From a virus, in IMG/VR virus record IMGVR_UViG_3300035701_001393, positions 1 through 25,340 of that record: a DNA stretch of 25,340 bases; one strand, given 5' to 3'. This document shows positions 2,206 to 25,251 of the stretch, one piece after another. Each line of letters starts with the position of its first letter. Position 1 is the first letter of the stretch. The notes below the pieces were generated by a model. The model was not told the DNA's origin, did not search any database, and saw nothing but the letters and a program-made list of their open reading frames with translations. The translations under genes and the position numbers were made by a program.

Positions 2206-3435
2206 TTGGAAGAGAAAAGGGAAATCATAACTACTCGTCTCTGGTCTAAACTACTATCCGAAACAAATATTGAACTTATCAAATCTGAAGTAGTTGGATT
2301 CTACGGCGGCAAGGGCGGGTCTAAGAGCTATACCATAGCCCAGTTTATGATTCACAAATTACTGAATGAGCAAAACAAACTAATTGCTATCGGCAGGAAA
2401 ACCTTCCCAGCACTCCGCATGACAGCCTACAAACTCATTACTGACCTACTAATCAAAGATGGCTGGTATCAGTATGTCCAGCATAATAAATCAGACCACA
2501 CAATAGACTACGGCACCAACCGGATACAGTTCTTTTCTCTTGATGATCCCACTAAAATATTCTCTTTTGATGCTAACTATATCTGGCTGGAAGAGACGAT
2601 AGAGTTCACCTGGGATGATTTCAGAGCTATCCGGCTATGCCTCCGACGCCCGCCTGGGAAGGAAATTAACCAAGTCTTTTTATCGTTCAACCCGATAGAC
2701 GAGAATCACTGGCTGAAGCAAAAGTTGTGGGCTGACCCTGACGTTACTTGGATACACTCCACTTATAAAGACAATCCCTTCTTGCCTAAAAGCTACGTCC
2801 GGCAACTGGAGGGCTTAATAGAGCAGGACGAGGGCTATTACCGTGTTTATACCCTGGGAGAATGGGGAACCCTGGAGAATGTGATTTATCCTACATGGAC
2901 TCAAATTGATGATATGCCCAGAGAATTCGAGCATCAAGGTTACGGTCTGGACTTCGGCTATGAAAACCCCTCAGTCTGTATTCATGTCGGCGTCATGGGA
3001 GATAACCTTTATTTAGATGAACTCGTTTACCAGACCCACTTAACGAATGCCGAGCTGATAGATGCGCTTAAAACTTTACGGCGATTGGACATCCATGCTG
3101 ACAGTGCTGAACCTCAGAGGATAGAGGAACTATGCCGAGCTGGGCTTAATGCTTATCCGGCCATGAAAGATGTAAAATTAGGTATTGACACAGTGAAGCG
3201 ATATAAGATACACTTAACTAAAAGAAGCGCGAATCTCATTAAAGAGATTCGCTCTTACCAGCGCAAGAAAGATAAATCGGGTAAAATCTTGGAAGAGCCT
3301 GTTAAATTTAATGACCATTGCCTTGATGCTTCCCGCTATGGCGTAGTCGGACTGGTAGGCTTAAAACCCTTAATTCCACAGGAACAGATAGTCGAGCTTA
3401 ACACTATGGACTTTGTGCCGGACTTAGATTTATGA
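2206..3435 (+). CDS. Terminase large subunit
   Basis: A 409-aa packaging motor, PBSX-like. The ATPase half shows a Walker A motif GGKGGSKS (residues 34-41) and a Walker B region FDANYIWLEE (121-130) with adjacent acidic residues. The nuclease half shows YGLDFGYENPS (~247), HADSAEP (~290) and a late DHCLDASRYG segment (~380), which match the acidic metal-binding residues of the RNase H-like headful or cos nuclease. It translocates DNA into the prohead through the portal and cuts it. The start is a TTG. The stop overlaps the next gene by ATGA. No intein is present, although large terminases are frequent intein hosts. Confidence 0.95.
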   Translation: MEEKREIITTRLWSKLLSETNIELIKSEVVGFYGGKGGSKSYTIAQFMIHKLLNEQNKLIAIGRKTFPALRMTAYKLITDLLIKDGWYQYVQHNKSDHTIDYGTNRIQFFSLDDPTKIFSFDANYIWLEETIEFTWDDFRAIRLCLRRPPGKEINQVFLSFNPIDENHWLKQKLWADPDVTWIHSTYKDNPFLPKSYVRQLEGLIEQDEGYYRVYTLGEWGTLENVIYPTWTQIDDMPREFEHQGYGLDFGYENPSVCIHVGVMGDNLYLDELVYQTHLTNAELIDALKTLRRLDIHADSAEPQRIEELCRAGLNAYPAMKDVKLGIDTVKRYKIHLTKRSANLIKEIRSYQRKKDKSGKILEEPVKFNDHCLDASRYGVVGLVGLKPLIPQEQIVELNTMDFVPDLDL

Positions 3436-5423
3436 AACCTTACTGGACTGATGGCGAAAGGACTATTTATTTTGGTGACTGCCGAGAGATATTACCCGAA
3501 CTTGACAGGGTTTCAGCCATAGTAACCGATCCGCCTTATGAGCTAGGCTTCATGGGCAAGTCATGGGATTCTAAGGGTATTTCTTTCCAGAAAGAGACAT
3601 GGCAGATTATACGGAACGTTTGTTTATCTGGTGCGTCTCTTTTATCCTTTGGTGGCACTAGGACATTCCATAGGATAGCTTGCGCTATTGAAGATGCTGG
3701 CTGGGAGATAAGGGATACCTTGATGTGGGTATACGGCTCAGGTTTCCCGAAATCTCTTGATATTAGCAAGGCGATAGACAAGGTAAATTCAAGATTTTAT
3801 GATAAGAATTTTCAAACTTATTGTAATGAGATGCGAATTAAAAAGGGATTATCACATAATAAGTTAAATGAGTTAATGGGAACAGCAATAACAGGTGGGG
3901 GATTTTCAAGTTCAATTATGGGGGATAAAAAGGTTAACGAATTGCCTACGCTTGAGATGTATCTAAAATTAAAACCCATTTTGGAATTAGACAATCGCTA
4001 CGATGCGTTGATAAGCAAAACAGAAGCTGAAAGAGAAGTTATTGGCAGGGGTGAAGCAGGTTTAGGGAAGGGACGGCCAGCCCATGAAGGGGGATTTAAG
4101 CCTGAATATGACTTAACAACTCCCGCCACTCCCGAAGCCCAGCTCTGGGAAGGCTATGGCACAGCCCTTAAGCCAGCATACGAAAGTATCACACTAGCCA
4201 TGAACCCCTTAAATGGTACATTCGCTAATAACGCCCTTAAATATGGCGTGGCAGGACTGAATATAGATGGGTGTAGGATACCTACCAATGGACAAATTAC
4301 TAATCATTCAAGAGGCAAAGAATCAGCAATCAGTAAAGGCAAATATGGTGATAGTGTAGCACAAGAAACACATCAAACCATTGGGCAACAAATAGGTCGC
4401 TTCCCAGCCAACTTTATACATGATGGTAGCCAACAGGTAATGGAGTTGTTTCCGAATACGAAAAGTGGTGCGATGAACTCAATGGCTCAAGAAGCTCAAT
4501 ACAACACCTATGGCAAGATGTATGCAAGGCGTGTAGTTAACCCCGCAAGTAATGGTTCGGCAGCCCGCTTCTTTAAGGAATGTAAATACTCACTCATTGA
4601 TTTGTGTTTATCACAAAGTTATGATACAATGAGTATATGCAAGAATATATATGTGGCTACTGCGGAAAGACTTTTAGCACTTATCCAAGCAACTATAGAA
4701 AATACTGCTCGCTTGAATGTGGTGGACTTGCAAGGCGAACAAAGCGACCCGCTTGTAAAGTCTGCGGTAAGCCATGCCGACATATGCGAAATATTTACTG
4801 CTCTCGTGCTTGTAAGAATAAAGAACTTGGCTTCCAACCAAGAGACATCACAAGCTATTCGGGATTATACTTCAAACTTCAGAGAATGTTCCCTACTCCT
4901 GAACCTTGTATCCTCTGCGGAAATCCAGGCGAACACAGACATCACCCAGATTACAACAAGCCTTTTGAAATCGTTTGGCTATGTGAATCCTGCCACCACA
5001 AACTTCACCCCAGAAATAAGAAGGTCAGAACCAGTCCGATTTCTATACGCACCTAAAGCATCAAAGGCTGAGAGAAATAAGGGATGCGAGGAGTTGCCTT
5101 TGAAACTTCATAGTAGTATGCCAGGAAGAAGAAACCCTGATGATATGAGTCAAAGCAAAATAGATAATGATGTCACGAGTAGATTTGTCACACCCGCACA
5201 GAATACCCATCCCACAGTCAAGCCCCTTGCCCTTATGGAATATCTAGTCAAGCTAGTCAAGATGCCAGAATATAACCTAATCATAGACCCATTCATGGGA
5301 AGCGGCTCAACGTTACTGGCCTGCATCCGATTAGGAATACCGTGTATCGGAATAGATAATGATGAGAAGTCATGCGAGATAACAGCCAAACGCTGTAGTC
5401 AAGTAATGGAGCTAGGACTGTGA
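3432..5423 (+). CDS. DNA methyltransferase, beta type, with insertions
   Basis: A 663-aa N4-cytosine/N6-adenine MTase. The catalytic DPPY (residues 33-36) comes first and the AdoMet-binding DPFMGSGST (619-627) last, the motif order of the beta class. HPTVKPLALMEYL precedes the last motif, as in relatives. Two insertions lengthen it. The first, about residues 117-200, includes a GLSHNKLNELMG helix-turn-helix-like stretch seen in other phage MTases. The second, about 385-532, has no MTase character and is the out-of-frame shadow of an HNH gene at 4637-5056. The MTase frame stays open through it, and homology resumes at PVRFLYAPKASKAERN. Whether the protein is active with this ~150-aa insert is unclear. 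The C-terminus AKRCSQVMELGL recurs downstream as remnants. Confidence 0.88.
   Translation: MKPYWTDGERTIYFGDCREILPELDRVSAIVTDPPYELGFMGKSWDSKGISFQKETWQIIRNVCLSGASLLSFGGTRTFHRIACAIEDAGWEIRDTLMWVYGSGFPKSLDISKAIDKVNSRFYDKNFQTYCNEMRIKKGLSHNKLNELMGTAITGGGFSSSIMGDKKVNELPTLEMYLKLKPILELDNRYDALISKTEAEREVIGRGEAGLGKGRPAHEGGFKPEYDLTTPATPEAQLWEGYGTALKPAYESITLAMNPLNGTFANNALKYGVAGLNIDGCRIPTNGQITNHSRGKESAISKGKYGDSVAQETHQTIGQQIGRFPANFIHDGSQQVMELFPNTKSGAMNSMAQEAQYNTYGKMYARRVVNPASNGSAARFFKECKYSLIDLCLSQSYDTMSICKNIYVATAERLLALIQATIENTARLNVVDLQGEQSDPLVKSAVSHADICEIFTALVLVRIKNLASNQETSQAIRDYTSNFRECSLLLNLVSSAEIQANTDITQITTSLLKSFGYVNPATTNFTPEIRRSEPVRFLYAPKASKAERNKGCEELPLKLHSSMPGRRNPDDMSQSKIDNDVTSRFVTPAQNTHPTVKPLALMEYLVKLVKMPEYNLIIDPFMGSGSTLLACIRLGIPCIGIDNDEKSCEITAKRCSQVMELGL
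4637..5056 (+). CDS. HNH endonuclease nested inside the methyltransferase gene
   Basis: A 139-aa protein read in a different frame inside the MTase gene. Its content is unmistakably coding: paired zinc knuckles CGYCGKTF...YCSLECG and CKVCGKPC...YCSRACKN, then CILCG and the HNH core HRHHPDY...WLCESCHHKLHP with the His-His and CxxCHxxLH elements of zinc-type HNH proteins common in phages. The surrounding MTase frame is featureless here, so this is an inserted homing-type gene. The last ten codons run into resumed MTase sequence. The ribosome binding site is poor, so expression may depend on re-initiation. Too little extra sequence surrounds the gene for a group I intron. It could cut MTase alleles lacking the insert. 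Confidence 0.85.
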   Translation: MQEYICGYCGKTFSTYPSNYRKYCSLECGGLARRTKRPACKVCGKPCRHMRNIYCSRACKNKELGFQPRDITSYSGLYFKLQRMFPTPEPCILCGNPGEHRHHPDYNKPFEIVWLCESCHHKLHPRNKKVRTSPISIRT

Positions 5424-5450
5424 CACCTTACTATCAGGAGTGGGTAACAA
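5384..5450 (+). repeat. MTase-end repeat, copy A
   Basis: The last codons of the large MTase (AKRCSQVMELGL) are followed, in a GTGA overlap, by a 15-codon reading frame at 5420-5467 that translates as VTPYYQEWVTIYDNQ and then stops. This resembles the first residues of a beta-type MTase (compare the upstream gene's MKPYW...TIYFGDC). It is the start of a second tandem MTase whose body is gone. Near-identical bases recur at 5984-6056. Confidence 0.75.
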
Positions 5451-5453
5451 TCT

Positions 5454-5975
5454 ATGATAATCAATAGAGTTTGGGCAATGCCAAATAAGTGGACATTCCA
5501 AATACCACCAATCGCTGAATTACTATCTCGTTATATCGGCGATGGTAAAGATTGGCTTGACCCCTTCTCTGGAAATTCCAAATTAACCGAACACACAAAT
5601 GACATAAACCCTAAAACCAAAGCCCAAATGCACTTGGATGCGGTCGAATATTTAAAAAGTAAAGGTGATTGTTCTGTTGCGGGAGTTCTATTTGACCCGC
5701 CCTATTCTCCGAGGCAGGTGGCGGAATGTTATAAGAATAATGGGTATCAGGTGAATTTAATGACTACCCAATCTAGCTTTTGGGCTAAATTAAAAAGGGA
5801 GATAGCCCGTATTGTAAGACCAGACGGCTTTGTTATTAGTTGTGCATGGAATAGTTGTGGCATAGGGAAAAAACTGGGATTTTACATTGTGGAAATCTTA
5901 TTGGTATCCCACGGTGGCTGGCATAATGACACAATAGTAACCGTTGAAAGGAAAATAAAAACGAGGCTTTTATGA
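5454..5975 (+). CDS. Adenine-type DNA methyltransferase (second MTase gene)
   Basis: A 173-aa class I MTase unrelated in layout to the upstream gene. AdoMet-binding DPFSGNS (residues 36-42) precedes the catalytic DPPY (81-84), followed by SPRQV and a late WNSCG...HGGWHNDTIVTVERK segment characteristic of a family of short phage adenine methylases. It probably methylates DNA to escape host restriction. No restriction enzyme gene accompanies it. It lies between the MTase start remnant (5420-5467) and the MTase end remnant (5985-6026), as if it replaced the body of a tandem MTase. AGGAG lies 13 bases before the ATG, which is long. Its start overlaps the stop of the remnant frame. Confidence 0.82.
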   Translation: MIINRVWAMPNKWTFQIPPIAELLSRYIGDGKDWLDPFSGNSKLTEHTNDINPKTKAQMHLDAVEYLKSKGDCSVAGVLFDPPYSPRQVAECYKNNGYQVNLMTTQSSFWAKLKREIARIVRPDGFVISCAWNSCGIGKKLGFYIVEILLVSHGGWHNDTIVTVERKIKTRLL

Positions 5976-5983
5976 TTCTAATT

Positions 5984-6056
5984 AGCCAAACGCTGTAGTC
6001 AAGGGGTTATGGAGTTGAAATTATGACACCTTACTATCAGGATAAGTGGGTAACAA
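5984..6056 (+). repeat. MTase-end repeat, copy B
   Basis: Translates as AKRCSQGVMELKL and stop (5985-6026), then in an ATGA overlap as MTPYYQDKWVTR and stop (6023-6061). These are the end of one MTase and the beginning of the next with no body on either side. The bases agree closely with copy A, including the shared block tgacaccttactatcagga and then gtgggtaacaa. The second mini-frame ends in an ATGA overlap with the following gene. Confidence 0.75.
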
Positions 6057-6057
6057 G

Positions 6058-6591
6058 ATGAAACCACCTTTAATGCAGGGTATGTCAAATGATTTTCAAA
6101 CCCCGCCAGAGGCATTAAGTCCCTTACTATCTTACCTCAAAAACGATTGGGTGGTATGGGAATGTGCCGAAGGTAGGGGGAATCTGTCTAATGCCCTTCG
6201 GAGATTTGGTTATCAGGTTATTGGTAGTGATATTCTGACTGGGCAGGACTTTTTACAGTGGCAACCAGATGAATTTGATTGCATTGTTACTAATCCACCA
6301 TTCTCAATTAAGCAGAAGTTTTTGGAACGATGTTATCAATTAGGTAAACCATTTGCCTTATTACTTCCGTTGACTACGTTTGAAACAGAAAAGAGACAAC
6401 GGCTATTTAAGAAATACGGGCTTGAGGTTATATTTTTGCCTAACAGAATAAACTTTGAAACACCATCGGGCAAAGGGTCGGGTGCATGGTTCGCTACAGC
6501 ATGGTTTACTAATTGGCTTGACATTGGCAAGGAATTAACATTCTCTGAGATAGCAGCCAAACGCTGTAGCCAAGAGGAGTTAGGACTATGA
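6058..6591 (+). CDS. NPPF-type DNA methyltransferase (third MTase gene)
   Basis: A 177-aa class I MTase. AdoMet-binding WECAEGRGNLS comes about residues 34-44 and the catalytic NPPF at 79-82, followed by FSIKQKF and a GKGSGAWFATAWF segment typical of phage N6-adenine methylase-like proteins. An in-frame GTG at 6046 is an alternative. The ATG at 6058 is preferred because it overlaps, as ATGA, the stop of the upstream remnant mini-frame MTPYYQDKWVTR, which would couple translation. The last ~15 residues (FSEIAAKRCSQEELGL) do not belong to this fold. They match the C-terminus of the large beta-type MTase, so the gene is fused to a foreign tail. The stop overlaps the next gene by ATGA. Confidence 0.8.
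   Translation: MKPPLMQGMSNDFQTPPEALSPLLSYLKNDWVVWECAEGRGNLSNALRRFGYQVIGSDILTGQDFLQWQPDEFDCIVTNPPFSIKQKFLERCYQLGKPFALLLPLTTFETEKRQRLFKKYGLEVIFLPNRINFETPSGKGSGAWFATAWFTNWLDIGKELTFSEIAAKRCSQEELGL
6548..6591 (+). repeat. MTase-end repeat, copy C
   Basis: agatagcagccaaacgctgt and the bases after it encode the IAAKRCSQEELGL tail, here in frame with the NPPF-type MTase. The bases match copies A and B at the agccaaacgctgtag core. No start-of-MTase half follows. The next gene begins directly in the ATGA overlap. Confidence 0.7.
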
Positions 6592-6806
6592 AGCATCTTA
6601 CTTTACAAACAACCAGATTGCCAGGTCGGAAAAACTCTTATTTGTTACACACAGACATACATCACAACACTAGAACATTAGCTCAACTAAAGATGGAGCC
6701 AGAGCAGTTCTGGGATGAGATTACAGAGTGGCTTTATCAGGATTTTGGCATTACGATACATTGGGTAGATGACACAACAGATAGCAGCCGAACGCTGTCA
6801 GGATAA
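6588..6806 (+). CDS. Hypothetical protein
   Basis: A 72-aa soluble protein with a strand-rich N-terminus and a helical centre (PEQFWDEITEWLYQDFG) followed by ITIHWVDD. The family is not recognised. It starts in an ATGA overlap with the NPPF-type MTase. Its last eight residues (DSSRTLSG) are encoded by MTase-end repeat copy D read in another frame, so the gene uses repeat sequence for its 3' end. It is the third cargo-like gene in the repeat-bounded locus. Confidence 0.6.
   Translation: MKHLTLQTTRLPGRKNSYLLHTDIHHNTRTLAQLKMEPEQFWDEITEWLYQDFGITIHWVDDTTDSSRTLSG
6779..6803 (+). repeat. MTase-end repeat, copy D (degraded)
   Basis: agatagcagccgaacgctgt matches copy C with one substitution, then diverges. 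In the MTase frame it reads IAAERC and then drifts, with no stop in the expected place. Here it forms the end of a 72-aa gene in a different frame. Confidence 0.6.
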
Positions 6807-6817
6807 GGAGGATACCA

Positions 6818-7009
6818 ATGACTATAGAAGAAGCTATACAAGTATTAAAGGAACACAGCGAGGATGAAATAGAGGTCAGCGACAAAGAACTACTACATGC
6901 CTTATCACTAGGCCTTGAAGCCTTGAAACGGATAAAGTACTACCGTGAAGAACTGGAGAGGAATAAAACCCTCAAAGTTCATTTACTACCAGGAGAGACA
7001 GAGAAATAG
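6818..7009 (+). CDS. Hypothetical protein
   Basis: A 63-aa acidic helical protein. A good AAGGAGG ribosome binding site at 6805-6811 lies six bases before the ATG. Sequence such as TIEEAIQVLKEHSE and LSLGLEALKRI suggests a small helical bundle of the kind found in many phage accessory proteins. No function is assignable. Its TAG stop (7007-7009) lies inside MTase-end repeat copy E. Confidence 0.6.
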   Translation: MTIEEAIQVLKEHSEDEIEVSDKELLHALSLGLEALKRIKYYREELERNKTLKVHLLPGETEK

Positions 7010-7047
7010 CAGCCAAGAGATGTGAAATTATGGAGCTAAAGGTGTAA
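7006..7047 (+). repeat. MTase-end repeat, copy E
   Basis: Translates as IAAKRCEIMELKV followed by TAA (7045-7047), a clean C-terminus of a beta-type MTase with no gene attached. It sits just before the portal ribosome binding site (GGAGGTGA, 7051-7058), so the ancestral gene upstream of the portal was probably an MTase. Confidence 0.7.
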
Positions 7048-7062
7048 AATGGAGGTGATATT

Positions 7063-9522
7063 ATGGAACAAAAAGACCTAAACGAAACAGTAGGTTATCA
7101 AGAATTTCAGCAACTCTTACTCGAAGCCACCACCACGGTTGAGCGAGAGCTGGCTATTGAAGATAGAGGCTGGATAAATTTAACAGGCGGCGGTTATGAC
7201 CCGATTACGCCATCTCTAAGACCAGTCTATATCAAACAGTCCCGCCTATACCATGCTAGAGACCCCTTAGCGGCTCAGGCTATAAGAATCTGGACTGACT
7301 ATACCTTCGGCCCGGGCATGACCTGGGAAGTAGACGAAACAAACAAAAAGACTAAAGACATACTTGAAACCTTCTGGTATAGTAGAAGCAACACGCCGAT
7401 ATTAGGTTCCCGCGGCCAAAGGAAATGTTCGCAGAAGCTCTTAGTAGACGGCGAAGTATTCTTTGCTATCTTCTTAGGCCCGGAGTCTACTATCCGAACC
7501 ATCGACCCTCTCGAGATTACAGAGATAGTCACTGACCCTGAAGATTTAGAGAAGCCTATGTTCTACAGACGGTCATGGAGTGATGCTCAGAGTCGGCCAC
7601 ACATTGATTACTACCGGAGCATATTCAATATAAAGGGCGATCCTACCAAAAATGCTTTAGGCCAGACAATCTCAAAGACAAGCGAAGCCATCGTTTACCA
7701 TCTAGCTTACAACACGACCTCTCAAAGAGGCAATCCGCTATTACTTCCCGCCCTAGACTGGATTAAGCAGTACAGGCGCTTCCTTGCGGCTAGGGTAGGC
7801 ATGATGTTGGCCAGGTCACGTTTCGCCTGGAGAAAGCCAGTCAAAGGTGGCGCCGCCGCCGTAAGCACAGTCAAAGGCGCGCTGCAGGATAAGACCCCAG
7901 AGGCCGGTGCTGTTCTAGTGGAGAATGAGGCCGTGGGCATGGAGGCCATTCAGACACCCCAGGATGCCCGTAACGCCTATGATGACGCAAGGATGCTAAA
8001 ACTACAGGTCTGCGCTGCCGTAGGCATACCTGAGCAATATTTCGGCGATATCGCCTGTAGCTCTGAAGATACTGAAGTTTTGACAGAGAAAGGTTGGATG
8101 TTACATCAGGATTGGAAGGCTGTGAATAAGGTAGCCTCATATAATCCTGAAAAAAAAGAGATTGAGTATGTCGAACCTGTTATGCTTAGACAATATGAAT
8201 ATCAGGGGAATATGGTGCATTTTCAACATAACCAGATGGATATTTTGGTAACACCTAATCACCGGATGTGGGCAGCACGTAATGTACCCTATAAACCTAT
8301 TATTGAAGATGGTTTTAGAAAAGTTGATAGGAGTTGGCAGTTTATTGAGGCTCAGCATATTGTAGATAATCCTCGTGCTGCTGGTTGGAAGTTTGTTAAT
8401 ACCGCCAACTTATCAGAAAAGGAAAGTGAAATAAGCCAATCGCAAGCTAAATTCTTAGGCTATTGGTTGTCTGAAGGCTACACATTAAATGGTGGGAAAA
8501 AGAAAGTATTAGACAAACGAGATGGGCGGCAATATAACAGGATATTCTATCGGATAGCTATATCTCAAAAGCCAGGAATTGTACTTAATAAAATGAAATG
8601 CCTCTTGGGTAGGATGGGTTACAAATATCATAGCCAAACTAATCAAGCTGGTGTGATTTCGCTTACTATAGTCAATAAGGCTTTATGGACATGGTTAAGG
8701 ACTGAGTGTGGCACAAATAGCCATGATAAACGCATACCTCGTGAATATTTACAAGCTGATAAATCAGCAAGAAAAGCTCTTTTGTCTGCTTTACTTGAAG
8801 GTGATGGTGGTAATGCCAATGGACAAGGTAGTGGTGGTTTGAAATATAGTTCAGTGAGCAAGCAATTAGCCGATGGTGTCATGGAATTGGCTCTAGGACT
8901 TGGTTATGCTACATCTGTTTACGAAGAACATGGAACATATAATGGTCAGCCGTCATCAATATGGCGTGTCGCTATTCGTAGCCAGCGAAAAGGGTGTCAA
9001 GTGCTTTCTAAACATGTTAAACTCGAACCTTATGATGGCATGGTTTACTGCTTCGCTTTACCCAAAAACCATATTTACATTACGCGGCATAATGGCAAAG
9101 TGGCTATTCAAGGAAACACCGGTAACCTTGCCACTGCTAAGACGGTTGAACTGCCAATGCTAAAAATGTTTCAATCCTATCAGTCGGTGTGGGGCGATGC
9201 TTACCAGGATATCTTTGACTTGGTACTCGAATACAACAAAGTCCCTGAAGATAACTGGTATGTGGACAAAGACTTCCCAGCGATAGCACCGGAGGATGTG
9301 TTCGCCGCAGCTCAGGCAATAGTACAGATGGTTATGGCCTTCCCTGAGTTCGCATCGGCGCCAGAAGTTAGACAGCAAGCCTTAGTAACTCTAGGAATCA
9401 ACGACCCCGCCCAGGTCTTAGATGCGCTGGCAAAAGAGGCCAAGTTAGACCCGACAATATCTCTGAGAAAAGCATTGGTAGAATTTAGGAGATTCCTTGA
9501 AGCAAAAAAGCCAACTCAATAG
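7063..9522 (+). CDS. Portal protein with intein
   Basis: An 819-aa precursor. Residues 1-331 and 686-819 together make a portal of 465 aa, the usual size for a dodecameric portal ring at the capsid vertex through which DNA is packaged. N-terminal YHARDPLAAQAIRIWTDYTFGPG and the joined YFGDIA/TGNLATAKTVELPMLKMF stretch are typical of SPP1/HK97-like portals. Residues 332-685 are an intein, described separately. The start has a strong GGAGGTGA ribosome binding site six bases upstream. It lies downstream of the terminase as expected, but separated from it by about 3.6 kb of MTase-related genes. Without splicing, the conserved TGNLATA region would be split and the protein presumably non-functional. 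Confidence 0.93.
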   Translation: MEQKDLNETVGYQEFQQLLLEATTTVERELAIEDRGWINLTGGGYDPITPSLRPVYIKQSRLYHARDPLAAQAIRIWTDYTFGPGMTWEVDETNKKTKDILETFWYSRSNTPILGSRGQRKCSQKLLVDGEVFFAIFLGPESTIRTIDPLEITEIVTDPEDLEKPMFYRRSWSDAQSRPHIDYYRSIFNIKGDPTKNALGQTISKTSEAIVYHLAYNTTSQRGNPLLLPALDWIKQYRRFLAARVGMMLARSRFAWRKPVKGGAAAVSTVKGALQDKTPEAGAVLVENEAVGMEAIQTPQDARNAYDDARMLKLQVCAAVGIPEQYFGDIACSSEDTEVLTEKGWMLHQDWKAVNKVASYNPEKKEIEYVEPVMLRQYEYQGNMVHFQHNQMDILVTPNHRMWAARNVPYKPIIEDGFRKVDRSWQFIEAQHIVDNPRAAGWKFVNTANLSEKESEISQSQAKFLGYWLSEGYTLNGGKKKVLDKRDGRQYNRIFYRIAISQKPGIVLNKMKCLLGRMGYKYHSQTNQAGVISLTIVNKALWTWLRTECGTNSHDKRIPREYLQADKSARKALLSALLEGDGGNANGQGSGGLKYSSVSKQLADGVMELALGLGYATSVYEEHGTYNGQPSSIWRVAIRSQRKGCQVLSKHVKLEPYDGMVYCFALPKNHIYITRHNGKVAIQGNTGNLATAKTVELPMLKMFQSYQSVWGDAYQDIFDLVLEYNKVPEDNWYVDKDFPAIAPEDVFAAAQAIVQMVMAFPEFASAPEVRQQALVTLGINDPAQVLDALAKEAKLDPTISLRKALVEFRRFLEAKKPTQ
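8056..9117 (+). mobile_element. LAGLIDADG intein in the portal gene
   Basis: A 354-aa intein (residues 332-685 of the precursor). Block A begins at Cys332 (CSSEDTEVLTEKGW). Block B has TPNH at 397-400. The homing endonuclease shows LGYWLSEGY (465-473) and LLEGDGG (577-583), the two LAGLIDADG helices with acidic Glu471 and Asp581. Blocks F and G are VYCFALPKNHIYITRHNGK and AIQGN. The first extein residue after Asn685 is Thr686. The penultimate residue is Gly684, where most inteins have His. Excision joins GDIA to TGNLATA, restoring a normal portal sequence. The DNA looks more AT-rich than the flanking extein. Confidence 0.93.
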
Positions 9523-9679
9523 AGTCGTCTGTTCAGACTGTAGCCGAATCGAAACCCTGGTAACTGTCAAGGGAAGAAAACACTGGTGTCCGAAATTACA
9601 CAAGTGGATTGGCAAAAGACATTATGATAGGCCGAGACAATGTTGTTTCCATGTTAGACCTAGCGAGATAAAATGCTAA
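9497..9679 (+). CDS. Small zinc-knuckle hypothetical protein
   Basis: A 60-aa basic protein starting with TTG and overlapping the portal 3' end by 26 bases. It has an N-terminal CSDC knuckle (Cys12, Cys15) and later Cys31 and CC near residue 49, with intervening His and Arg residues. This resembles small treble-clef zinc proteins found beside phage structural genes. The family and role are not recognised. The start is uncertain because no later ATG exists before the cysteines. Confidence 0.5.
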   Translation: MKQKSQLNRVVCSDCSRIETLVTVKGRKHWCPKLHKWIGKRHYDRPRQCCFHVRPSEIKC

Positions 9680-10002
9680 CAGGTGAAGCTAAGAAAATCT
9701 ACCAGCGTGAGTATATGAGAAAGAGGCGAGTTGTTAAGCCGTTAGACCCTTTAGTTGTGTTAGACCAGACCTTAGAACAGTTGCATGATTACTCTTGCCG
9801 GCTAGAAAAGGTTAATGATACAATAAGCGAGGTAGCAGAGACTATGAAAAAGAAACGCAAAGTTATTGAACCTGCGGACGAACCTAAAAAGGAAACGACC
9901 CTGATATTGGAAACCAAAATCTGTCCCGCCTGTGGCGGCAAGGGATACCGAGAGTTTGAGGCTGGCTTGATTAGACTGCCATGTAGGGAGTGTCAGAAAT
10001 GA
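9673..10002 (+). CDS. Hypothetical protein with C-terminal DnaJ-type zinc motif
   Basis: A 109-aa protein. The N-terminus (IYQREYMRKRR) is basic, the centre is helical (TLEQLHDY...KVNDTISEVAETMKKK) and the C-terminus carries CPACGGKGY...CRECQK. The CxxCxGxG form is a DnaJ-type zinc-binding knuckle, with the last CxxC as its partner. Function is unknown. A lone DnaJ-type zinc motif does not make it a J-protein, since no HPD domain is present. It overlaps the next gene by ATGA and belongs to a set of small genes between portal and MuF. Confidence 0.6.
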   Translation: MLTGEAKKIYQREYMRKRRVVKPLDPLVVLDQTLEQLHDYSCRLEKVNDTISEVAETMKKKRKVIEPADEPKKETTLILETKICPACGGKGYREFEAGLIRLPCRECQK

Positions 10003-10211
10003 GCGAATGGCAAAAGTGTCCTGTCTGTAATGGTGCTGGGAAAGTAACATCAGGTTTTTATAACCGAGGTGGTGATTGGCCCTTCTGGGTTTCCAGTGAT
10101 GGCAATCCTGAAATGTGCCGATGTTGTCAAGGCAAGGGAATCATTTTGAAGCCTATTGAATCACCGGAAGTAACAGTTACATACTTCACAGTCCCTATAA
10201 GCACTGGTTAA
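9999..10211 (+). CDS. Small DnaJ-type zinc-motif protein
   Basis: A 70-aa protein with CPVCNGAGKV near the N-terminus and CRCCQGKGI about 35 residues later, two CxxCxGxG knuckles that together could bind one zinc ion. It follows directly on another gene ending in the same type of motif. An in-frame GTG at 9990 is possible. The ATG at 9999 is preferred because AGGGAG (9985-9990) is eight bases upstream and the ATG overlaps the previous stop as ATGA. The role is unknown. Confidence 0.6.
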   Translation: MSEWQKCPVCNGAGKVTSGFYNRGGDWPFWVSSDGNPEMCRCCQGKGIILKPIESPEVTVTYFTVPISTG

Positions 10212-10217
10212 AAAGCA

Positions 10218-10400
10218 ATGAAAGAACTCGATGACATTATAGACCTGTTAGAAGCGCAGATTCCGGCTAATCCGGCAGCGCCACAGAACATAAAGCTGGC
10301 CAATGAGCTAGAGCGAGACCTCAAAAAGTACTTCGGTAATCTGGAGAGCATGATGCCTGATTTAGAGGGAATCTATTATAAGTATGTGGAGCAGGGATAA
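10218..10400 (+). CDS. Small helical hypothetical protein
   Basis: A 60-aa acidic, mainly helical protein (LDDIIDLLEAQI, then NIKLANELERDLKKYFGNLESM). No cysteines or membrane segment are seen. The ribosome binding site is weak. The stop TAA overlaps the following ATG by one base (TAATG), suggesting coupling with the 54-aa gene. The family is not recognised. Confidence 0.55.
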   Translation: MKELDDIIDLLEAQIPANPAAPQNIKLANELERDLKKYFGNLESMMPDLEGIYYKYVEQG

Positions 10401-10564
10401 TGCAATTCAAACAGGTTTGGCAAAATGGTGAACTTTTTATCATAATACCTGATGAACTTGTTTCTAGATTGGCAACATTGCTAGGGATAGAAGGTAAGCA
10501 TTATTTTTTCTATAATAGGTCATCTAAAGAATGGGCGAATTTTATTTTGAATCATAGGAATTGA
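10400..10564 (+). CDS. Small hypothetical protein
   Basis: A 54-aa reading frame filling the gap before the MuF gene. It begins in a TAATG overlap with the upstream gene, with CAGGGA just before. The translation starts MQFKQVWQNGELFIIIP and ends in WANFILNHRN. It contains hydrophobic strands and a VSRLATLLGI helix. The DNA here is AT-rich. Start overlap, spacing and close packing support a real gene, but the family is unknown. Confidence 0.5.
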   Translation: MQFKQVWQNGELFIIIPDELVSRLATLLGIEGKHYFFYNRSSKEWANFILNHRN

Positions 10565-10566
10565 AT

Positions 10567-11163
10567 ATGCCAGACCTAAACTCAGACCTTGATGATGCCC
10601 TAGAGCCTATAATAAGATTCTTACAATCTGCTCTAAGGACTACCATCGAAGGCCACTTAGTCCGTGCCTATATTCAAGGTGACAAAGAACTGATTTACTG
10701 GGGCATAACAAAGGGCGGCATCCCGATAGCCTATGAGGGACCGCCCTCTGAGCAGGCTATAAAGTGGGCTAGGGATTACTGTGCCAAAATGGTGACTAAG
10801 ATGGATGATGAGACCAAAACCAGACTGGCAAAAGCGGTAGCCGAGGCGATAGAGAATAAGCGCGGCGTCCCCGGGCTGGCTAAGAATATACGAGAAGAGT
10901 TTGCCGACATGACCCGCTACCGCTCACAGATGATAGCACGGACTGAGACAGCCAAAGCCCTGAGTGAAGGCTCTCAACAAAGAATGAAAGATATGGGCAT
11001 TGAGTATAAAGAGTGGGTCAGAACTAGCGGCTATGATTGCGATGTGTGCGAGGATAACGAAAACGCCGGCATAATTCCAATAGATGATGCCTTCCCCAGC
11101 GGAGATATGACTCCTCCTTCACATCCTAACTGTATGTGTGTGGTATCGCCAGCGAGGAAATAA
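10567..11163 (+). CDS. Phage head morphogenesis protein, SPP1 gp7/MuF-like
   Basis: A 198-aa minor head protein. The C-terminal half has the family signature: RSQMIARTETAKALSEG (~120-136), then EWVRTSGYDCDVCEDNENAG and a final PPSHPNCMCVVSP, with cysteines and histidine probably binding zinc. These proteins sit near the portal inside the prohead and can be ejected with the DNA. Family members follow the portal, as here, although five small genes intervene. The ATG at 10567 is chosen because AGGA (10556-10559) is seven bases upstream. A TTG two codons earlier is the alternative. It is shorter than many MuF proteins because the N-terminal region is reduced. Confidence 0.85.
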   Translation: MPDLNSDLDDALEPIIRFLQSALRTTIEGHLVRAYIQGDKELIYWGITKGGIPIAYEGPPSEQAIKWARDYCAKMVTKMDDETKTRLAKAVAEAIENKRGVPGLAKNIREEFADMTRYRSQMIARTETAKALSEGSQQRMKDMGIEYKEWVRTSGYDCDVCEDNENAGIIPIDDAFPSGDMTPPSHPNCMCVVSPARK

Positions 11164-11333
11164 TGGAGAAGCTTGACATCATAGACCCCAAGAGAGTAGA
11201 ATTGCAGGGATACATTGAGAAGATTCCCTGGAAGAAATTTATTAACTATGGGTCAGTCAAAATTATGATTCAAAATGGCAAAGCGGTATTGATTACTTTG
11301 GAAGAAACTGTTAAAATGTTAGATAGAGCGTAA
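11163..11333 (+). CDS. Small hypothetical protein
   Basis: A 56-aa basic protein with alternating strands and helices (RVELQGYIEKIPWKKFINYG, KIMIQNGKAVLITLEETVKML). It starts in a TAATG overlap with the MuF gene, with GAGGAA five bases before. A GTG at 11136 would extend it by nine residues into MuF, without better support. The family is not recognised. It is the last gene before a strong terminator. Confidence 0.55.
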   Translation: MEKLDIIDPKRVELQGYIEKIPWKKFINYGSVKIMIQNGKAVLITLEETVKMLDRA

Positions 11334-11357
11334 AAGCTCGGTAAAAAAGCTGAATGG

Positions 11358-11392
11358 AACAACCATAGGCGAAAGTCTGTGGTTGTTTTTTT
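11358..11392 (+). terminator. Rho-independent terminator abutting the next start codon
   Basis: AACAACCATAGGC (11358-11370), loop GAAA (11371-11374) and GTCTGTGGTTGTT (11375-11387) form a 13-bp stem with two G-U pairs and a GNRA tetraloop closed by C-G. A run of seven T follows (11386-11392, the first two within the stem). The ATG of the protease/scaffold gene starts at the very next base, 11393. No ribosome binding site fits between, so the element may act as an attenuator as well as a terminator. Confidence 0.8.
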
Positions 11393-13135
11393 ATGCCTTA
11401 TACGACAGCTAACCCACCAAGCGCAGTCAAGGGACTTCCCTCCCATGCTATTGAGATATATGTGGCTGCCTTCAATTCCGCTTTAGAGCAGTACAAAGAT
11501 GAAGGCAAGGCCGCCGCGACTGCATGGGCGGCAGTCAAAACCAAATATAAGAAAAATGAACAGGGCGACTGGGTCGCGAAGGAGGCAAGTGTGATTGATG
11601 AATTGAAATCAAAGCACTCTGAGATAATTCAAGAGCTAGGCCGGCGCAATGCTAGTGCTGATGCTGGGCGCATCAAAAAGATAATGGAACTCTGCCAAGA
11701 ACTTCTGTCCAGCGAGCCGACTGAAGAGAAAACTACTGAAGCTCTGAAGGAATCCGACTCTGTTCTAGCCTGGTTAAGAGAACAGCCGATTGTCAAAACC
11801 GAAGATAGTGTTCAATTCCCTGCGGCCGCTTATGCTTATGTGCCCGATTCTCAAAACCCCTCTACTTGGAGATTGAGACTATGGGAATCTGTAAAGTCCA
11901 CCAAGAAACAGTTGGACAGAGCATCGGCCTATTTGAGCCCAGGCGGATTTGCAGGTGAGCGGATAAATCTTACTTCTATTGCCTTATCAGAAACCAAGCG
12001 CAGAATCCGCTCTGAATATAGAAAACTCGGTATTGAAGAAGATATGCCCCGATGGGTAAAGGAGGCTGAATTGAGAACTTATCTCCGTGAATCAATAGAA
12101 ATTCCAATCGAGGAAGTTAATAGAGAGAATCTATCTAAAGGTGTTCTTCCTGTTAGATTCCTGCGTCCAGGATTTAATGAAGGCAAGACTCGATATTATA
12201 CCGAGGCTGCACTTGCTGATGCCTGTACTGTCCTTGATGGTATGCAAATGTTTGCAAATCATCAGACAGAGGCAGAGGCTAGAGAACGCCCCGAAGGTGA
12301 TATACGAGATTGGGTTGCTGTTCTTGAGACAAAAGGAGTTTCCCAGAAAGGTAATGCCATAGGTGCATCTCTTATACATGCTCCCTGGTTCAAAGAAATG
12401 GTGAATGGTCTTTATGAGCAGGGGACTCTAAACAAATTGGGCGTATCGATAAATGCTATTGGTAAAGGTGTCAAAGGTACTATTGATGGGGTCGAAACAC
12501 TGGTTATAGAAGCAATAACTGGTGGACGTTCAGTAGACTTTGTAACTTTGCCTGGAGCAGGTGGAGTTGCTGGATTGAGAGAAGCAATTCAATTAACTGA
12601 AGCTGACAATAAGTTAGCAGAGATAGATGTGGACTTAATTAGTTTAGCAACTCTCAGAGAACATCGACCTGACTTAGTGAAGGAAATCGAGACTTTAACT
12701 AAAAATACCTTATTGAAGGAGGTCAAAAAGACTATGGAACTTGAAGAGGAAAACAAAACTCTGAAAGAAGCAAATGCAACCTTAACCACAGAGAATGAAA
12801 CTCTCAAAACAGAAAAAGAGACCGCTGAGAAGGCGAAACTTTTAGCTGAAACCAAAGCCACTGTTGAGGCGGCTGTTGGCAAGGCGGAATTGCCCGAACC
12901 AGCAAAGGCTCGCATTCTGGAGAGGTTCAAGGATGCTGAGAAGGCCGATGGGCTTGAAGAGGCAATAACAGCCGAGCAAACCTACATAGCCGCCATAAGC
13001 GAGGCGGGAAGAGTCAAAGGTCTGGGTGGGGGCAGTCCTGAAGATGATGGCGATAAAGCTCTAGCCAAAGCTCTCAGGGAAGCAAACCCGACCTGGACAG
13101 AGAAACAAGTCGAAATCGCCGTTAGAGGGCGATAA
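11393..13135 (+). CDS. ChaB-like/prohead protease/scaffold fusion
   Basis: A 580-aa head maturation protein. Residues 1-61 are ChaB-like (LPSHAIEIYVAAFNSAL...TAWAAVKTKYKKNEQGDWV). Residues ~115-220 hold a segment beginning FPAAAYAYVPDSQNPSTW, seen in other phage proteins. Residues ~245-400 are the capsid protease: MFANHQ with His290, LGVSINAIG with Ser352 and SVDFVTLPGAGG (380-391), probably containing the catalytic His and Ser. Residues ~448-580 are a charged coiled coil rich in Glu, Lys and Thr, typical of scaffold. The scaffold would guide capsid assembly and be digested by the protease. The start lacks a ribosome binding site and directly follows the terminator. An in-frame TAG upstream leaves no earlier start. 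Confidence 0.85.
   Translation: MPYTTANPPSAVKGLPSHAIEIYVAAFNSALEQYKDEGKAAATAWAAVKTKYKKNEQGDWVAKEASVIDELKSKHSEIIQELGRRNASADAGRIKKIMELCQELLSSEPTEEKTTEALKESDSVLAWLREQPIVKTEDSVQFPAAAYAYVPDSQNPSTWRLRLWESVKSTKKQLDRASAYLSPGGFAGERINLTSIALSETKRRIRSEYRKLGIEEDMPRWVKEAELRTYLRESIEIPIEEVNRENLSKGVLPVRFLRPGFNEGKTRYYTEAALADACTVLDGMQMFANHQTEAEARERPEGDIRDWVAVLETKGVSQKGNAIGASLIHAPWFKEMVNGLYEQGTLNKLGVSINAIGKGVKGTIDGVETLVIEAITGGRSVDFVTLPGAGGVAGLREAIQLTEADNKLAEIDVDLISLATLREHRPDLVKEIETLTKNTLLKEVKKTMELEEENKTLKEANATLTTENETLKTEKETAEKAKLLAETKATVEAAVGKAELPEPAKARILERFKDAEKADGLEEAITAEQTYIAAISEAGRVKGLGGGSPEDDGDKALAKALREANPTWTEKQVEIAVRGR
12716..12736 (+). promoter_or_regulatory. Internal ribosome binding site and start for free scaffold
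   Basis: A perfect AAGGAGG (12716-12722) lies 11 bases before an ATG (12734-12736) that is in frame with the protease/scaffold gene (Met448). It is placed exactly where the protease domain gives way to the coiled-coil scaffold. Initiation here would give a 133-aa free scaffold, as in phage lambda C/Nu3. The spacing is slightly long. Confidence 0.5.
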
Positions 13136-13157
13136 TTAAAGAAGGAGGTACAAAAAT

Positions 13158-14228
13158 ATGTGTCCAGCTATATATTATGCAACTGGTAAAACTGCTGGAG
13201 ATCAAGGCTCCAGCGACTTAGAAGGCAGACATATCCAAATTGAAGAAAGTCTGCTAATCCATCCTTATCATTCCGATGGTTTGGTTGATAAGGGAGACCC
13301 AGTAATTGTTGGAAACCCCGCATTAGGTTCTTGTGCTGTTGGTGTCGCATTTACGAGTGCGGTAGCCGCAACCGATTCCATCACCATAGACACTGAGGGG
13401 ATTTGGTTCCTGAATGTCCTGGGCAAAGAATCAGACGGCACTATCGATGGGCACGCTCATGCCCTAGCTTTGGGCGACCCTGTCTATATCGCAAGAGAGG
13501 CTGCAACTTCGGGAGCACCCTATATTCTCTCAGGCGAAGACGACCCAGCGGATTTCTTGCCGTTTGGTTATGTCCTGGGTGATGTTACCAGTAGCCTAAC
13601 TGTCCCGACCCTTGTGGCAGTCAAGGTTCACTGGAATCCGAACTATCTGGAGAGCATCAATGTTGGTAGCCTTAGTCTTAATACGCAGACTCAGGTTCAA
13701 ACCGTTGATAACCTTGAACTCGATATAGCAACCTTGAGGGCTGGTGGCGAAACCCAAGAGTCCTGGGGACTAGAGTATGCCTGGATGAAGTGCTTTATCG
13801 GCCTTGCCAATGCACTACATGCCGATGAAGACATGTGTGGTATCTACATCCGGCTTGAGGATGACACGGCTTCGACAGGTGGCGACCTTTTTGCTGGGCG
13901 ATTCCAGACTCACGTAAGTCATGCCAGCACTCATACTCGGATTTATGGACTGTATGTGGCCATTTCCAACGAAGTCTCTACCGTCATCTCAGAATCGTTT
14001 GGAATTGCGATTGCTATGGGCGGCGCAGGTTGCGCTCCAGCAATACAATCGGCAATTCAGATAATGGGCGATGGCACTCTGGGTGGAGTCCAGAGTTGGT
14101 TCCAGACAGAGATTGGCAGAGGTGCTGGTCTCAAAGCTAACGTTGCCGCAGTTGGCAATACAGTATTTGAAATCCCAATCAATGTAAATGGGACAAAATA
14201 TTGTATTCCAGTAATCGCTTGGGCATAA
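13158..14228 (+). CDS. Capsid decoration-like protein (DUF2190-like N-terminus)
   Basis: A 356-aa structural protein with a strong AAGGAGG ribosome binding site. The N-terminal half (~40-160) has the alternating small-residue beta pattern VDKGDPVIVGNPALGSCAVGV, ITIDTEGIWFLNV and ALALGDPVYI, like DUF2190-type capsid-stabilising proteins. The C-terminal half (~190-356) is a different beta-rich domain with repeated RIYGLYVAI/ESFGIAIAMGG-type strands and a final VNGTKYCIPVIAW, resembling domains in phage fibre or surface proteins. Position between protease and major capsid gene supports a head role. It is longer than simple decoration proteins (about 110-150 aa), so the C-terminal domain may be displayed on the capsid. 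No enzymatic motif is seen. Confidence 0.65.
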   Translation: MCPAIYYATGKTAGDQGSSDLEGRHIQIEESLLIHPYHSDGLVDKGDPVIVGNPALGSCAVGVAFTSAVAATDSITIDTEGIWFLNVLGKESDGTIDGHAHALALGDPVYIAREAATSGAPYILSGEDDPADFLPFGYVLGDVTSSLTVPTLVAVKVHWNPNYLESINVGSLSLNTQTQVQTVDNLELDIATLRAGGETQESWGLEYAWMKCFIGLANALHADEDMCGIYIRLEDDTASTGGDLFAGRFQTHVSHASTHTRIYGLYVAISNEVSTVISESFGIAIAMGGAGCAPAIQSAIQIMGDGTLGGVQSWFQTEIGRGAGLKANVAAVGNTVFEIPINVNGTKYCIPVIAWA

Positions 14229-14237
14229 GGAGTTGAA

Positions 14238-14513
14238 GTGAAGATTGAAATAACTGGCGACCCAGTAATCGATAACCTGAAGAGCCGGAAGGAAACAACC
14301 GTCTCTAAAATTCAGGAGTTGGCTTATAAGCGACTTCAGCTGACCAGACAAGTCGAGGAAATCGACAAGTTTATCGGTCAACTCGAGGGCGCTTCAGTGG
14401 CCAATGAACTGGTACAGAAGGATATTGATTCACGGAGAGCTATAACCCAAGCACAAAAAGAGGCAGACGAAAAGAAAACTGCCGAAAAAGTAACAAAGAA
14501 GGAGGTTCAATAA
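14238..14513 (+). CDS. Coiled-coil hypothetical protein in the head operon
   Basis: A 91-aa protein with a GTG start and AAGGAG five bases upstream. It is almost wholly helical and charged (DNLKSRKETTVSKIQELAYKR...QVEEIDKFIGQLEG), ending in a Lys/Glu/Ala-rich tail. It lies between the decoration-like and major capsid genes. It could be a small assembly or scaffold-associated protein, but the family is not recognised. Its last codons overlap the capsid gene's ribosome binding site (AAGGAGG). Confidence 0.65.
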   Translation: MKIEITGDPVIDNLKSRKETTVSKIQELAYKRLQLTRQVEEIDKFIGQLEGASVANELVQKDIDSRRAITQAQKEADEKKTAEKVTKKEVQ

Positions 14514-14514
14514 T

Positions 14515-15663
14515 ATGGAACTTATGAAGTTAATGGAAGGATGGGATGGCTACCATGCCATCTCTGAGATAAAAAAGCCTGAAGATTGGAAACAGCGGCT
14601 TGCCAAAGTTCAAGAAGTGCTTTCCAACGCTTCAAGGTTGCCTCAGTGGAAGGCTGAATATGTGATAAGGGAAGCTATGACCACATCGGACTTTCCTTTG
14701 CTGTTCGCCGATGTCACTGACAGGCAAGTGTTAGCGGCTTACCAAGCCATCGAACCTGTCTGGAAACAGTACATGCGGATAGGCAAGATAAACAGACTCT
14801 ATCCGTGGGTGGGTGGTAAAAGATTCGCCATCGCTAATACCGGCATGATTCTTGGCGAGGTAGCCGAGAAGGGTGAATACCTGCCCGTCAAGAAAACCGA
14901 AACCAAGTTCGATGTCTATGCCAGGAAGTACGGCAACCAGTTAGACATTTCTTGGGAAGCCATACTCGCGGATGATCTGGGGGCGCTACAGAACACCCCC
15001 AATGAATTTGCATGGCTGGCGGCTAACACTGAGCATTATCTGGCTGTCAACTCTTATGCAAACGATGTAGGCACTCATGCGGGCGGAAACCTGTATGAGG
15101 TCGGCGTGAATGCCGGAGTCCTGCCGCTTACCATCGGCAACCTCGAATTGGATGTGGCTAGGATGCAGGCATTCAGGCATCCAAGCGGACAGCCGATGCG
15201 GAACCGCCCGAAGTTTCTCGTTATCTCTGATGGTGGATTGGAGTTTACCGCTCGACAAATCCTGACCTCGGCTAACAAGATGTGGATAACGGATGCTGAT
15301 GTTGGCTTGACTGTACCGGTTGCGATGCCGACAACCAACGTCCTAGCCCAGTATGGTTTGCAGCTCGTGATAGACCCTTGGCTATCGATTGCTGGCACTG
15401 CTGGCTTTACACAGAATACCTGGTATCTGTTTGCCGACCCAGCAAATATCGCAGCCGTGGAATGCGATTACTTGCAAGGCCATGAGAATCCCGAAATCTG
15501 CATGAAGGCTTCGGATAAGGTCTCGGTAGGTGGAGGCGATGTTGGCCCAATGACCGGCGATTTTGCTACCGACAACATTCTCTACAGGGTGAGACAGTGT
15601 TTCGGCGCAAACAAGCTGGATTGGCGAGCGACTTACGTCAACACCGTTGCCGATACGAGGTAA
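14515..15663 (+). CDS. Major capsid protein
   Basis: A 382-aa protein with a strong AAGGAGG ribosome binding site. Length, position after protease/scaffold and before the connector genes, and sequence features (RLYPWVGGKRFAIANTG, a long EKGEYLPVKKTETKFDVYARKYGNQLDISWEAIL strand-loop-strand and C-terminal FATDNILYRVRQCFGANKLDWRATY) fit an HK97-fold major head subunit of the Mu-like/ClpP-associated kind. The N-terminal ~50 residues (EDWKQRLAKVQEVLSN) are helical. No decisive sequence motif exists for this fold, so the call rests mainly on context. A stem-loop follows the stop codon. Confidence 0.85.
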   Translation: MELMKLMEGWDGYHAISEIKKPEDWKQRLAKVQEVLSNASRLPQWKAEYVIREAMTTSDFPLLFADVTDRQVLAAYQAIEPVWKQYMRIGKINRLYPWVGGKRFAIANTGMILGEVAEKGEYLPVKKTETKFDVYARKYGNQLDISWEAILADDLGALQNTPNEFAWLAANTEHYLAVNSYANDVGTHAGGNLYEVGVNAGVLPLTIGNLELDVARMQAFRHPSGQPMRNRPKFLVISDGGLEFTARQILTSANKMWITDADVGLTVPVAMPTTNVLAQYGLQLVIDPWLSIAGTAGFTQNTWYLFADPANIAAVECDYLQGHENPEICMKASDKVSVGGGDVGPMTGDFATDNILYRVRQCFGANKLDWRATYVNTVADTR

Positions 15664-18328: not shown

Positions 18329-18335
18329 TATGACT

Positions 18336-18986
18336 ATGCCAGAATTAGGAATTCAAAAAAGAGGTATTGAAATAGGAAGGAAGGGTACTAATACTTGGCA
18401 ATGGTGTGCTTGTCCTAAATGTGGTAAGGAACGTTGGGTTTATCTTAGATACGGTAAGCCTGTTTCGATACATTGTGTCCAATGTCGTGGTTATATTTTA
18501 ACACCTGCAAGAATTAAAGTGCATGAATCACAAAGAGGGATACCAAGAAAACCTGGTATTATCAAAAGTGGTAAAGAATCCCATGCCTATAAAGATGGTA
18601 AAAGTAGAACTGTTCAAGGCTATATAAAAATACTTCTAGCCCCTGATGATTTCTTTTATCCGATGGCAAATTCTAAACATTATGTCTTAGAGCATCGCCT
18701 TGTGGTCGCTAAAGCTCTAGGTAGATGCCTACAACCCTGGGAACTCGTGCATCACAAAAATGGAATTAAAGATGATAACCGTTATCCTGAGAATTTAGAA
18801 TTAACCTTGATTGGTTCTCATAGTAGAGAACATGGCAAGGGTTATCGTGATGGTTATCAAAAGGGATTGATTGATGGTAGAAATAAGCAAATAGAATCAC
18901 TTAAATCACGAATTGAGATTTTAGAATCACGTTTAACTATCCTTGAAGCAGAGCAAGCAATTCCCAATGAGATTATGGTGAGATGA
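18336..18986 (+). CDS. Free-standing HNH endonuclease
   Basis: A 216-aa homing-type nuclease. An N-terminal zinc ribbon (CPKCGKERW...CVQCRG) is followed by a DNA-contacting linker, then the HNH core: YVLEHRLVVAKALGR, VHHKNGIKDDNRYPENLEL with the His-His and Asn residues of the beta-beta-alpha metal site. A C-terminal coiled coil (QIESLKSRIEILESRLTILE) follows. AAGGTG (18322-18327) fits the ATG at 18336. An ATG two codons earlier is too close. The gene splits tail terminator from the tail module, as mobile nucleases do. Its DNA is more AT-rich than the neighbours. The last residues EIMVR copy the upstream gene's EIMLR. Confidence 0.9.
   Translation: MPELGIQKRGIEIGRKGTNTWQWCACPKCGKERWVYLRYGKPVSIHCVQCRGYILTPARIKVHESQRGIPRKPGIIKSGKESHAYKDGKSRTVQGYIKILLAPDDFFYPMANSKHYVLEHRLVVAKALGRCLQPWELVHHKNGIKDDNRYPENLELTLIGSHSREHGKGYRDGYQKGLIDGRNKQIESLKSRIEILESRLTILEAEQAIPNEIMVR
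18969..18986 (+). repeat. 3' end of tail terminator, duplicated at the HNH gene end
   Basis: This is the second copy of the sequence at 18311-18328, here fused in frame to the HNH gene. The following gene starts inside it by ATGA. See the HNH entry. Confidence 0.5.
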
Positions 18987-24265: not shown

Positions 24266-24275
24266 GAGGTAAATT

Positions 24276-25219: not shown

Positions 25220-25251
25220 GAGAACAATAAAAGTAAAAAAGGAGGTTTAAC

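Follow-up and report, generated by a model that had tools for sequence, protein, structure and literature searches.

The DNA analysed here, referred to throughout as the window, comprises 25,340 nt of the virus record IMGVR_UViG_3300035701_001393, which is an incomplete linear record. In the interval between its terminase and portal genes, each of five gene boundaries carries the coding sequence for the C-terminal end of a PF01555-type DNA methyltransferase (MTase), and at two of the five the first 11-15 codons of such an MTase are present as well. The five tails and two mini-frames that a first-pass annotation had read as MTase ends were confirmed, coordinates included, from the sequence, its open reading frames (ORFs) and a repeat search. 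The genes lying between these ends are called cargo in the following list.

3432..5423, plus strand: PF01555-type (N6/N4) DNA methyltransferase, 663-aa frame (Pfam PF01555, E 1.2e-25; phrog_67, E 2.7e-54)
5376..5423, plus strand: MTase tail copy 1, EITAKRCSQVMELGL, still on its MTase; repeat D1; body homologous to contig L130 until about 5414
5420..5467, plus strand: orphan MTase start 1, VTPYYQEWVTIYDNQ, a leader mini-ORF; ATG of the next gene at ACAATCT/ATG, with the identical junction in L091 and G013
5454..5975, plus strand: cargo 1, DPPY methylase with complete N-terminus (phrog_11619, E 3.6e-44)
5982..6026, plus strand: MTase tail copy 2, AKRCSQGVMELKL, orphan; from repeat search and end profiles
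6023..6061, plus strand: orphan MTase start 2, MTPYYQDKWVTR; its stop overlaps the following ATG; 33 nt identical to L103
6058..6591, plus strand: cargo 2, NPPF methylase with its C-terminus replaced by an MTase tail (phrog_799, E 4.7e-39)
6547..6591, plus strand: MTase tail copy 3, EIAAKRCSQEELGL, fused in frame to cargo 2; repeat D1; 94% over 36 nt to L117/G002
6588..6806, plus strand: cargo 3, 72-aa ORF without family match
6779..6812, plus strand: MTase tail copy 4, degraded (IAAERC); carries AAGGAGG and is read in a different frame; repeat D2
6818..7009, plus strand: cargo 4, 63-aa ORF with its stop codon inside tail copy 5, without family match
7003..7047, plus strand: MTase tail copy 5, EIAAKRCEIMELKV; by the L130 alignment, the true 3' end of the MTase before the portal, now displaced

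Methyltransferase ends at five gene boundaries

The automatic repeat search returned the repeats D1 (5376, 5976 and 6547) and D2 (6550, 6781 and 7006) as well as D5, which pairs 5403 with 6006 at 81% identity over 37 nt. The top local repeats within 5301-7100 scored 70.7 bits (73 nt, 82%) and 53.6 bits; the highest score in 60 first-order Markov shuffles of the same region was 31.9 bits, which rules out a chance origin. As the first-pass annotation had proposed, the translated remnants were searched against phage MTases. They matched the ends of intact members above chance, with 25-45 bits on the end profiles and reversed peptides as the control; the degraded tail 4 scored under the threshold. 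Start remnant 2 agrees with the MTase starts of intact genes at 29 of 32 nt and with that of L103 at 32 of 32. Judged by these matches, the remnants in the window are genuine N- and C-terminal ends of PF01555-type phage MTases. An 86-nt tail-start junction gave no match in the GenBank phage collection.

When IMG/VR was scanned for the start codons and the tail codons, many intact phage MTases were returned, which begin with M(T/K)PYYQDKWVTIYHGDCREILP and end in ..IEIEEKYCEIAAKRCSQEVMEL. Among them the amino-acid identity is 0.69 at the ends as compared to 0.28 in the middle, a comparison that is biased for the end by which loci were searched, since the loci were found partly by end motifs, and unbiased for the opposite end. 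In L095, a portal relative, an intact MTase directly follows the terminase gene. L054 and L122 contain two intact MTases in tandem, the tail of one directly beside the start of the next and, in L054, overlapping it at ATGA. As read from their sequences, these pairs are the intact form of the tail-start junctions in the window.

The cargo itself is unrelated to these ends. From residue 1 onwards, the DPPY methylase shows 55% identity to a Streptococcus phage homologue; homologues of the NPPF methylase end at LxFxE.. without a tail, and the native last residues of the window copy have been swapped exactly at tail 3. Elsewhere, homologues of cargo 1 and cargo 2 are not bracketed by MTase ends. 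Thus, the ends belong to the site, and the repeat as a part of the cargo was ruled out. An MTase start stands upstream of only two of the four cargo genes: the ATG of the DPPY gene (5454) lies inside the first mini-ORF, and that of the NPPF gene (6058) overlaps the mini-ORF stop (ATGA). In another frame, tail 4 forms the end of the 72-aa ORF, and tail 5 supplies from GAAATAGCA the TAG stop of the 63-aa ORF.

The interval opens with the MTase at 3432..5423, whose final codons are tail copy 1 and which aligns with the 520-aa MTase of G012 apart from a 147-aa insert. This in-frame insert of about 147 aa (4575-5056), absent from the G012 homologue, adjoins a conserved AKASKAER motif and holds an HNH-endonuclease-like ORF in another frame (4637-5056; phrog_2340, E 1.3e-10). 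Downstream of the 63-aa ORF follows the portal gene (7063-9522), which bears an intein with a LAGLIDADG domain (PF14528, E 7.6e-10); the portal gene is uninterrupted in relatives such as L004.

Close relatives and the anatomy of the joints

In L130, the portal of which is 92% identical to that of the window, the MTase runs uninterrupted into the tail IAAKRCEIMELKV beside the portal gene. Positions 1-205 of L130 align to window 5207-5414 and positions 170-1224 to window 7003-8054 (86.5%); about 36 nt of L130 match both tail copies of the window, and tail identity is present at both borders. In the window, the body of the pre-portal MTase ends with a different tail (5385-5423), and IAAKRCEIMELKV is found 1.6 kb downstream, past the cargo. 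Since the L130 MTase is continuous into the last tail, the cargo block of the window lies inside the 3' end of that gene, bounded by tail copies. L130 has a single pre-portal MTase, and on this alignment tail copy 5 corresponds to its 3' end, displaced.

The window and L103 are 99% identical over 8681-10034 and 10567-14549, and differ at a further site:

10396..10566, plus strand: second cargo locus; a 54-aa gene in the window, a shell of MTase start, 71-aa gene and MTase tail in L103, a Dam-type methylase in L130

The 54-aa gene of the window occupies 10400-10564. In L103, the tail at this locus ends just before the shared downstream ATG, and the 33 nt of its MTase start are identical to window 6024-6056. 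The borders of the difference coincide with gene boundaries, without an evident shared end sequence. The first-pass annotation had regarded an unrelated regulatory element at non-MTase loci as evidence against its reading. What was found goes halfway: the L103 shell stands where its sister phage has no MTase, yet the shell itself consists of MTase ends. A small gene, MKVRLYSNP.., was observed in the terminase-portal interval of one phage (L193 603-764) and at the second cargo locus of another (L205 9743-9865), suggesting that cargo moves between the two loci.

The difference between L130 and the window, bounded as it is by tail copies of which some 36 nt of L130 match both, might also have arisen from an ancestral region of several genes in which DNA was simply inserted or deleted between homologous MTase tails; the starts would then be small, unrelated leader ORFs. 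We consider this improbable, as neither the agreement of start remnant 2 with MTase starts (29 of 32 nt in intact genes, 32 of 32 in L103) nor an L103 shell at a site where the sister phage has no MTase tail would be expected from it; with regard to the starts it is largely refuted.

At the left joint, the start codon of the cargo is out of frame with the MTase start, so that the latter constitutes a leader mini-ORF, the stop of which is near the cargo start or overlaps it. The junction reads exactly ACAATCT/ATG in three cargos of different phages and GTAATAT/ATG in one. At the right joint, most cargos lack an evident stop codon within their own sequence and terminate in the tail, in any of the three frames: in frame in the window NPPF methylase, the L091 C5 methylase and G013; in +1 in the 63-aa ORF of the window, L117 and L172; and in +2 in the 72-aa ORF of the window, L103 and the 75-aa ORF of G013. 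Tails as special three-frame terminators were ruled out, the property being equally frequent in MTase bodies (0.53 vs 0.51). A motif resembling a Shine-Dalgarno (SD) sequence is present in the final 33 nt of 60% of the MTases of low G+C content (low-GC), as compared to 5% of body windows. Tails and starts would thus hold translation signals for their neighbours, and we infer that selection may retain the ends on this account. The stop/start overlaps and SD-like motifs at the joints are read from sequence alone, and translational coupling is putative.

Recurrence of the ends in other phages

Profiles of the two ends were run on loci totalling about 2 Mb, translated in six frames, and on 40 stretches of 20 further records. 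At 22 bits they matched 110 starts and 105 tails, as compared to 2 starts and 0 tails in the reversed peptides that served as the control; in the later set, the reversed peptides gave 1 match. Shells of start, cargo and tail occur seven times in five contigs, namely twice each in the window and L091 and once each in L103, L117 and G013. Outside the window, they enclose a 64-aa hydrophobic protein and a C5 methylase (L091), a 107-aa protein (L117), the 71-aa gene (L103) and, in G013, a 313-aa protein with a radical-SAM-like CNMRCVYC motif, named by sequence inspection. In L077 and L149, MTase start and tail are fused with no body between them. Further matches to a 14-base start pattern (L062, L075, L096 and perhaps L097) are probably due to chance and were not counted as shells; by our own rough estimate, about a score of chance matches to this pattern are possible in that collection.

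G001 (L091), G002 (L117) and G013 have at most a few short stretches in common with the window and are thus different phages; G001 and G013 share about 3 kb. G002 is 100% identical to window 24244-24276 and 99% to 25236-25340, and the content between differs. These two near-identical pieces at the right end indicate that DNA passes between these phages. They represent a further recent exchange with borders at gene scale.

Repeated ends are found at other genes, too. In 198 contigs, short local repeats are enriched about 2.9-fold for gene tails and about 1.8-fold for gene starts, which are rough values as the contigs are partly related. Downstream of the L117 shell, the tail of the upstream nuclease gene is repeated, i.e. 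the end of a non-MTase gene. Thus, MTase ends are frequent but not exclusive scars. Repeated units of tail, ribosome-binding site (RBS) and start of non-MTase genes, or MTase tails joined to the start of the next gene, were also observed in L039 (four places), L122/L276 (4703 and 5550), L129 and L114. In 28 intervals of relatives, the gap between terminase and portal is approximately zero in about a third and below 350 nt in most.

This wider occurrence bears on the possibility that a translation-initiation element has been copied to positions ahead of many genes, like the Start-Associated Sequences (SAS) known at phage gene starts from cluster K mycobacteriophages (PMC3203893), and that the MTase origin of the repeats is incidental. 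A tail copy does precede every gene from 5454 to the portal, with an SD in or just past the tails; a 34-nt tail-RBS-ATG unit recurs at three successive boundaries in G016; and tail-RBS-start units of non-MTase genes are likewise repeated in phages. However, this explanation does not account for MTase starts upstream of cargo with matching tails downstream, nor for the body-less scars in L077 and L149. Moreover, the copies retain MTase coding sense, vary in the would-be RBS part and number few per genome rather than dozens. We therefore regard it as rather unlikely.

Less likely still is an origin from HNH homing genes that inserted into MTases and later decayed, the bodies being lost and the ends surviving while cargo was captured in break repair. 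An HNH ORF does lie inside the window's own MTase (4637-5056), and L127 has an HNH-like ORF, recognised by eye, directly after an orphan MTase start; however, a recognisable HNH gene is present in the cargo of none of the seven shells, several of these cargos being without family match.

As a regulatory element the repeats were rejected: they share no fold, and neither promoter-like sites (15 vs 10.4+-3.5) nor terminator-like sites (1 vs 3.4) are clearly enriched. Rfam at gathering scores gave no match for them. One relative of the portal, at 54%, lies within a metagenome-assembled genome of Dehalococcoidia, and on this one match the host probably belongs to that class. A bacterial element was rejected as well, since 343 genomes of this class contained no match to the start pattern and one to the tail pattern, the control likewise giving one; genome_contigs did not contain a degenerate AKRCSQEVME tail pattern.

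Three other features of the window were noted. Close to the left end, a phage-borne radical SAM gene (PF04055; 670-1392) immediately precedes the packaging genes. In the head-tail region, a second HNH endonuclease gene (PF13392) occupies 18330-18986, of which 18647-18779 is 75% identical to G003 DNA. A 49-aa ORF (23601-23750) resembles the start of the next gene (23722-24192; xGPDGKxKxxR; repeat D16) and is perhaps a left-over gene start.

Interpretation and closest known systems

We favour, with a probability of roughly 0.6, the reading that accessory genes have been exchanged at gene precision in the terminase-portal interval, which serves as a cargo locus, the MTase ends being scars kept for their translation signals; the mechanism is one that we infer. 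Through short-homology or illegitimate recombination, a new gene would become joined to the first codons of an MTase just upstream of its own start codon and, within its own 3' end, to the last codons. The left joint may survive owing to the MTase start, which overlaps the stop upstream of it and serves as a leader for coupled translation, the right joint owing to the tail, which gives a stop codon and an SD signal for the following gene. Shared ends could then pair with other copies, whereby cargo would be moved or lost, as in a tail-tail exchange between L130 and the window. More tentatively, the MTase ends might be standing adaptors among co-circulating phages, such that any gene between a start and a tail moves by short-homology recombination to any MTase or shell site, an integrase-free trade in cassettes; we think this doubtful.

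Several points weigh against the cargo-locus reading. A donor molecule or intermediate was not found among the contigs compared. The 72- and 63-aa genes are without an MTase start, and the near-identical start-codon junction of four cargos is not obvious from random joining. Conserved Met-Glu codons (ATGGAG) account for part of the SD enrichment. The difference between L130 and the window appears to fit insertion and deletion alike. Finally, synonymous identity at the ends is not raised in low-GC MTases; a history of recombination between MTases at their ends is thus unsupported there, and protein constraint is enough to explain the conservation of the ends in low-GC genomes. In the high-GC set the same test was positive for starts, and the synonymous-site results were left out of the supporting evidence.

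The first-pass annotation had proposed a former tandem MTase array with replaced interiors. That interiors were swapped and ends kept is borne out by the order of start, unrelated gene and tail in the window, L091, L117, L103 and G013, and examination of related phages yielded both intact MTases (L095, L054, L122) and other cargo between the same ends (the seven shells). The array itself stands only in part: two tail-start junctions and the intact pairs of L054 and L122 speak for it, whereas the two small genes without an MTase start and a last tail that corresponds to the L130-type MTase 3' end do not. That MTase ends act as docking sites by recombination is plausible, but is weakened by the lack of extra synonymous identity at low-GC ends and by repeated ends that are not exclusive to MTases.

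Gene-precise swapping of single genes in phages is an old question because the joints are usually traceless. Here the joints are marked, as the ends of a common accessory gene flank its replacements. Exchange events can thus be found by sequence and counted, and one may ask whether translation signals or recombination homology decide which joints survive. In the open-access literature searched, no paper describing MTase ends bordering unrelated genes was found.

Integron cassettes and attC arrays resemble the interval in that unrelated genes follow each other in one orientation with related repeats between them. The window repeats, in contrast, are coding MTase ends that partly code for the cargo, and have no conserved folded repeat: an attC-like folded site was not found, the five copies folding no better than shuffles except for one (z -2.0) and sharing no structure common to all. 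The SAS elements (PMC3203893) are likewise short repeats that carry an SD and recur at the starts of successive phage genes, almost always in the same orientation; they have a 13-bp consensus immediately preceding the start codon at dozens of sites. Unlike them, the window repeats are the coding ends of a real gene, lie both 5' and 3' of the cargo and are few per genome. In place of a short AGGAG consensus near many start codons, there are copies at five boundaries and two starts only, with a varying SD position. The promoter early stem-loop (PeSL) of T4-like phages, mentioned in PMC4503421, is a repeated intergenic element credited with gene shuffling; the window repeats, in contrast, are gene ends and show no outstanding promoter or stem-loop signal.

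Phage mosaicism by illegitimate or relaxed homologous recombination, including morons, is alike in the gene-precise exchange of small accessory genes, in the structural operon and in variable loci between conserved genes, and homology-driven mosaics between divergent phage sequences arise via Rad52-like recombinases (PMC3945230). The difference is that the borders described here are recognisable remnants of one gene family, reused at several loci in several phages. It is the bordering of unrelated genes by both ends of one gene family at several loci that is distinctive.

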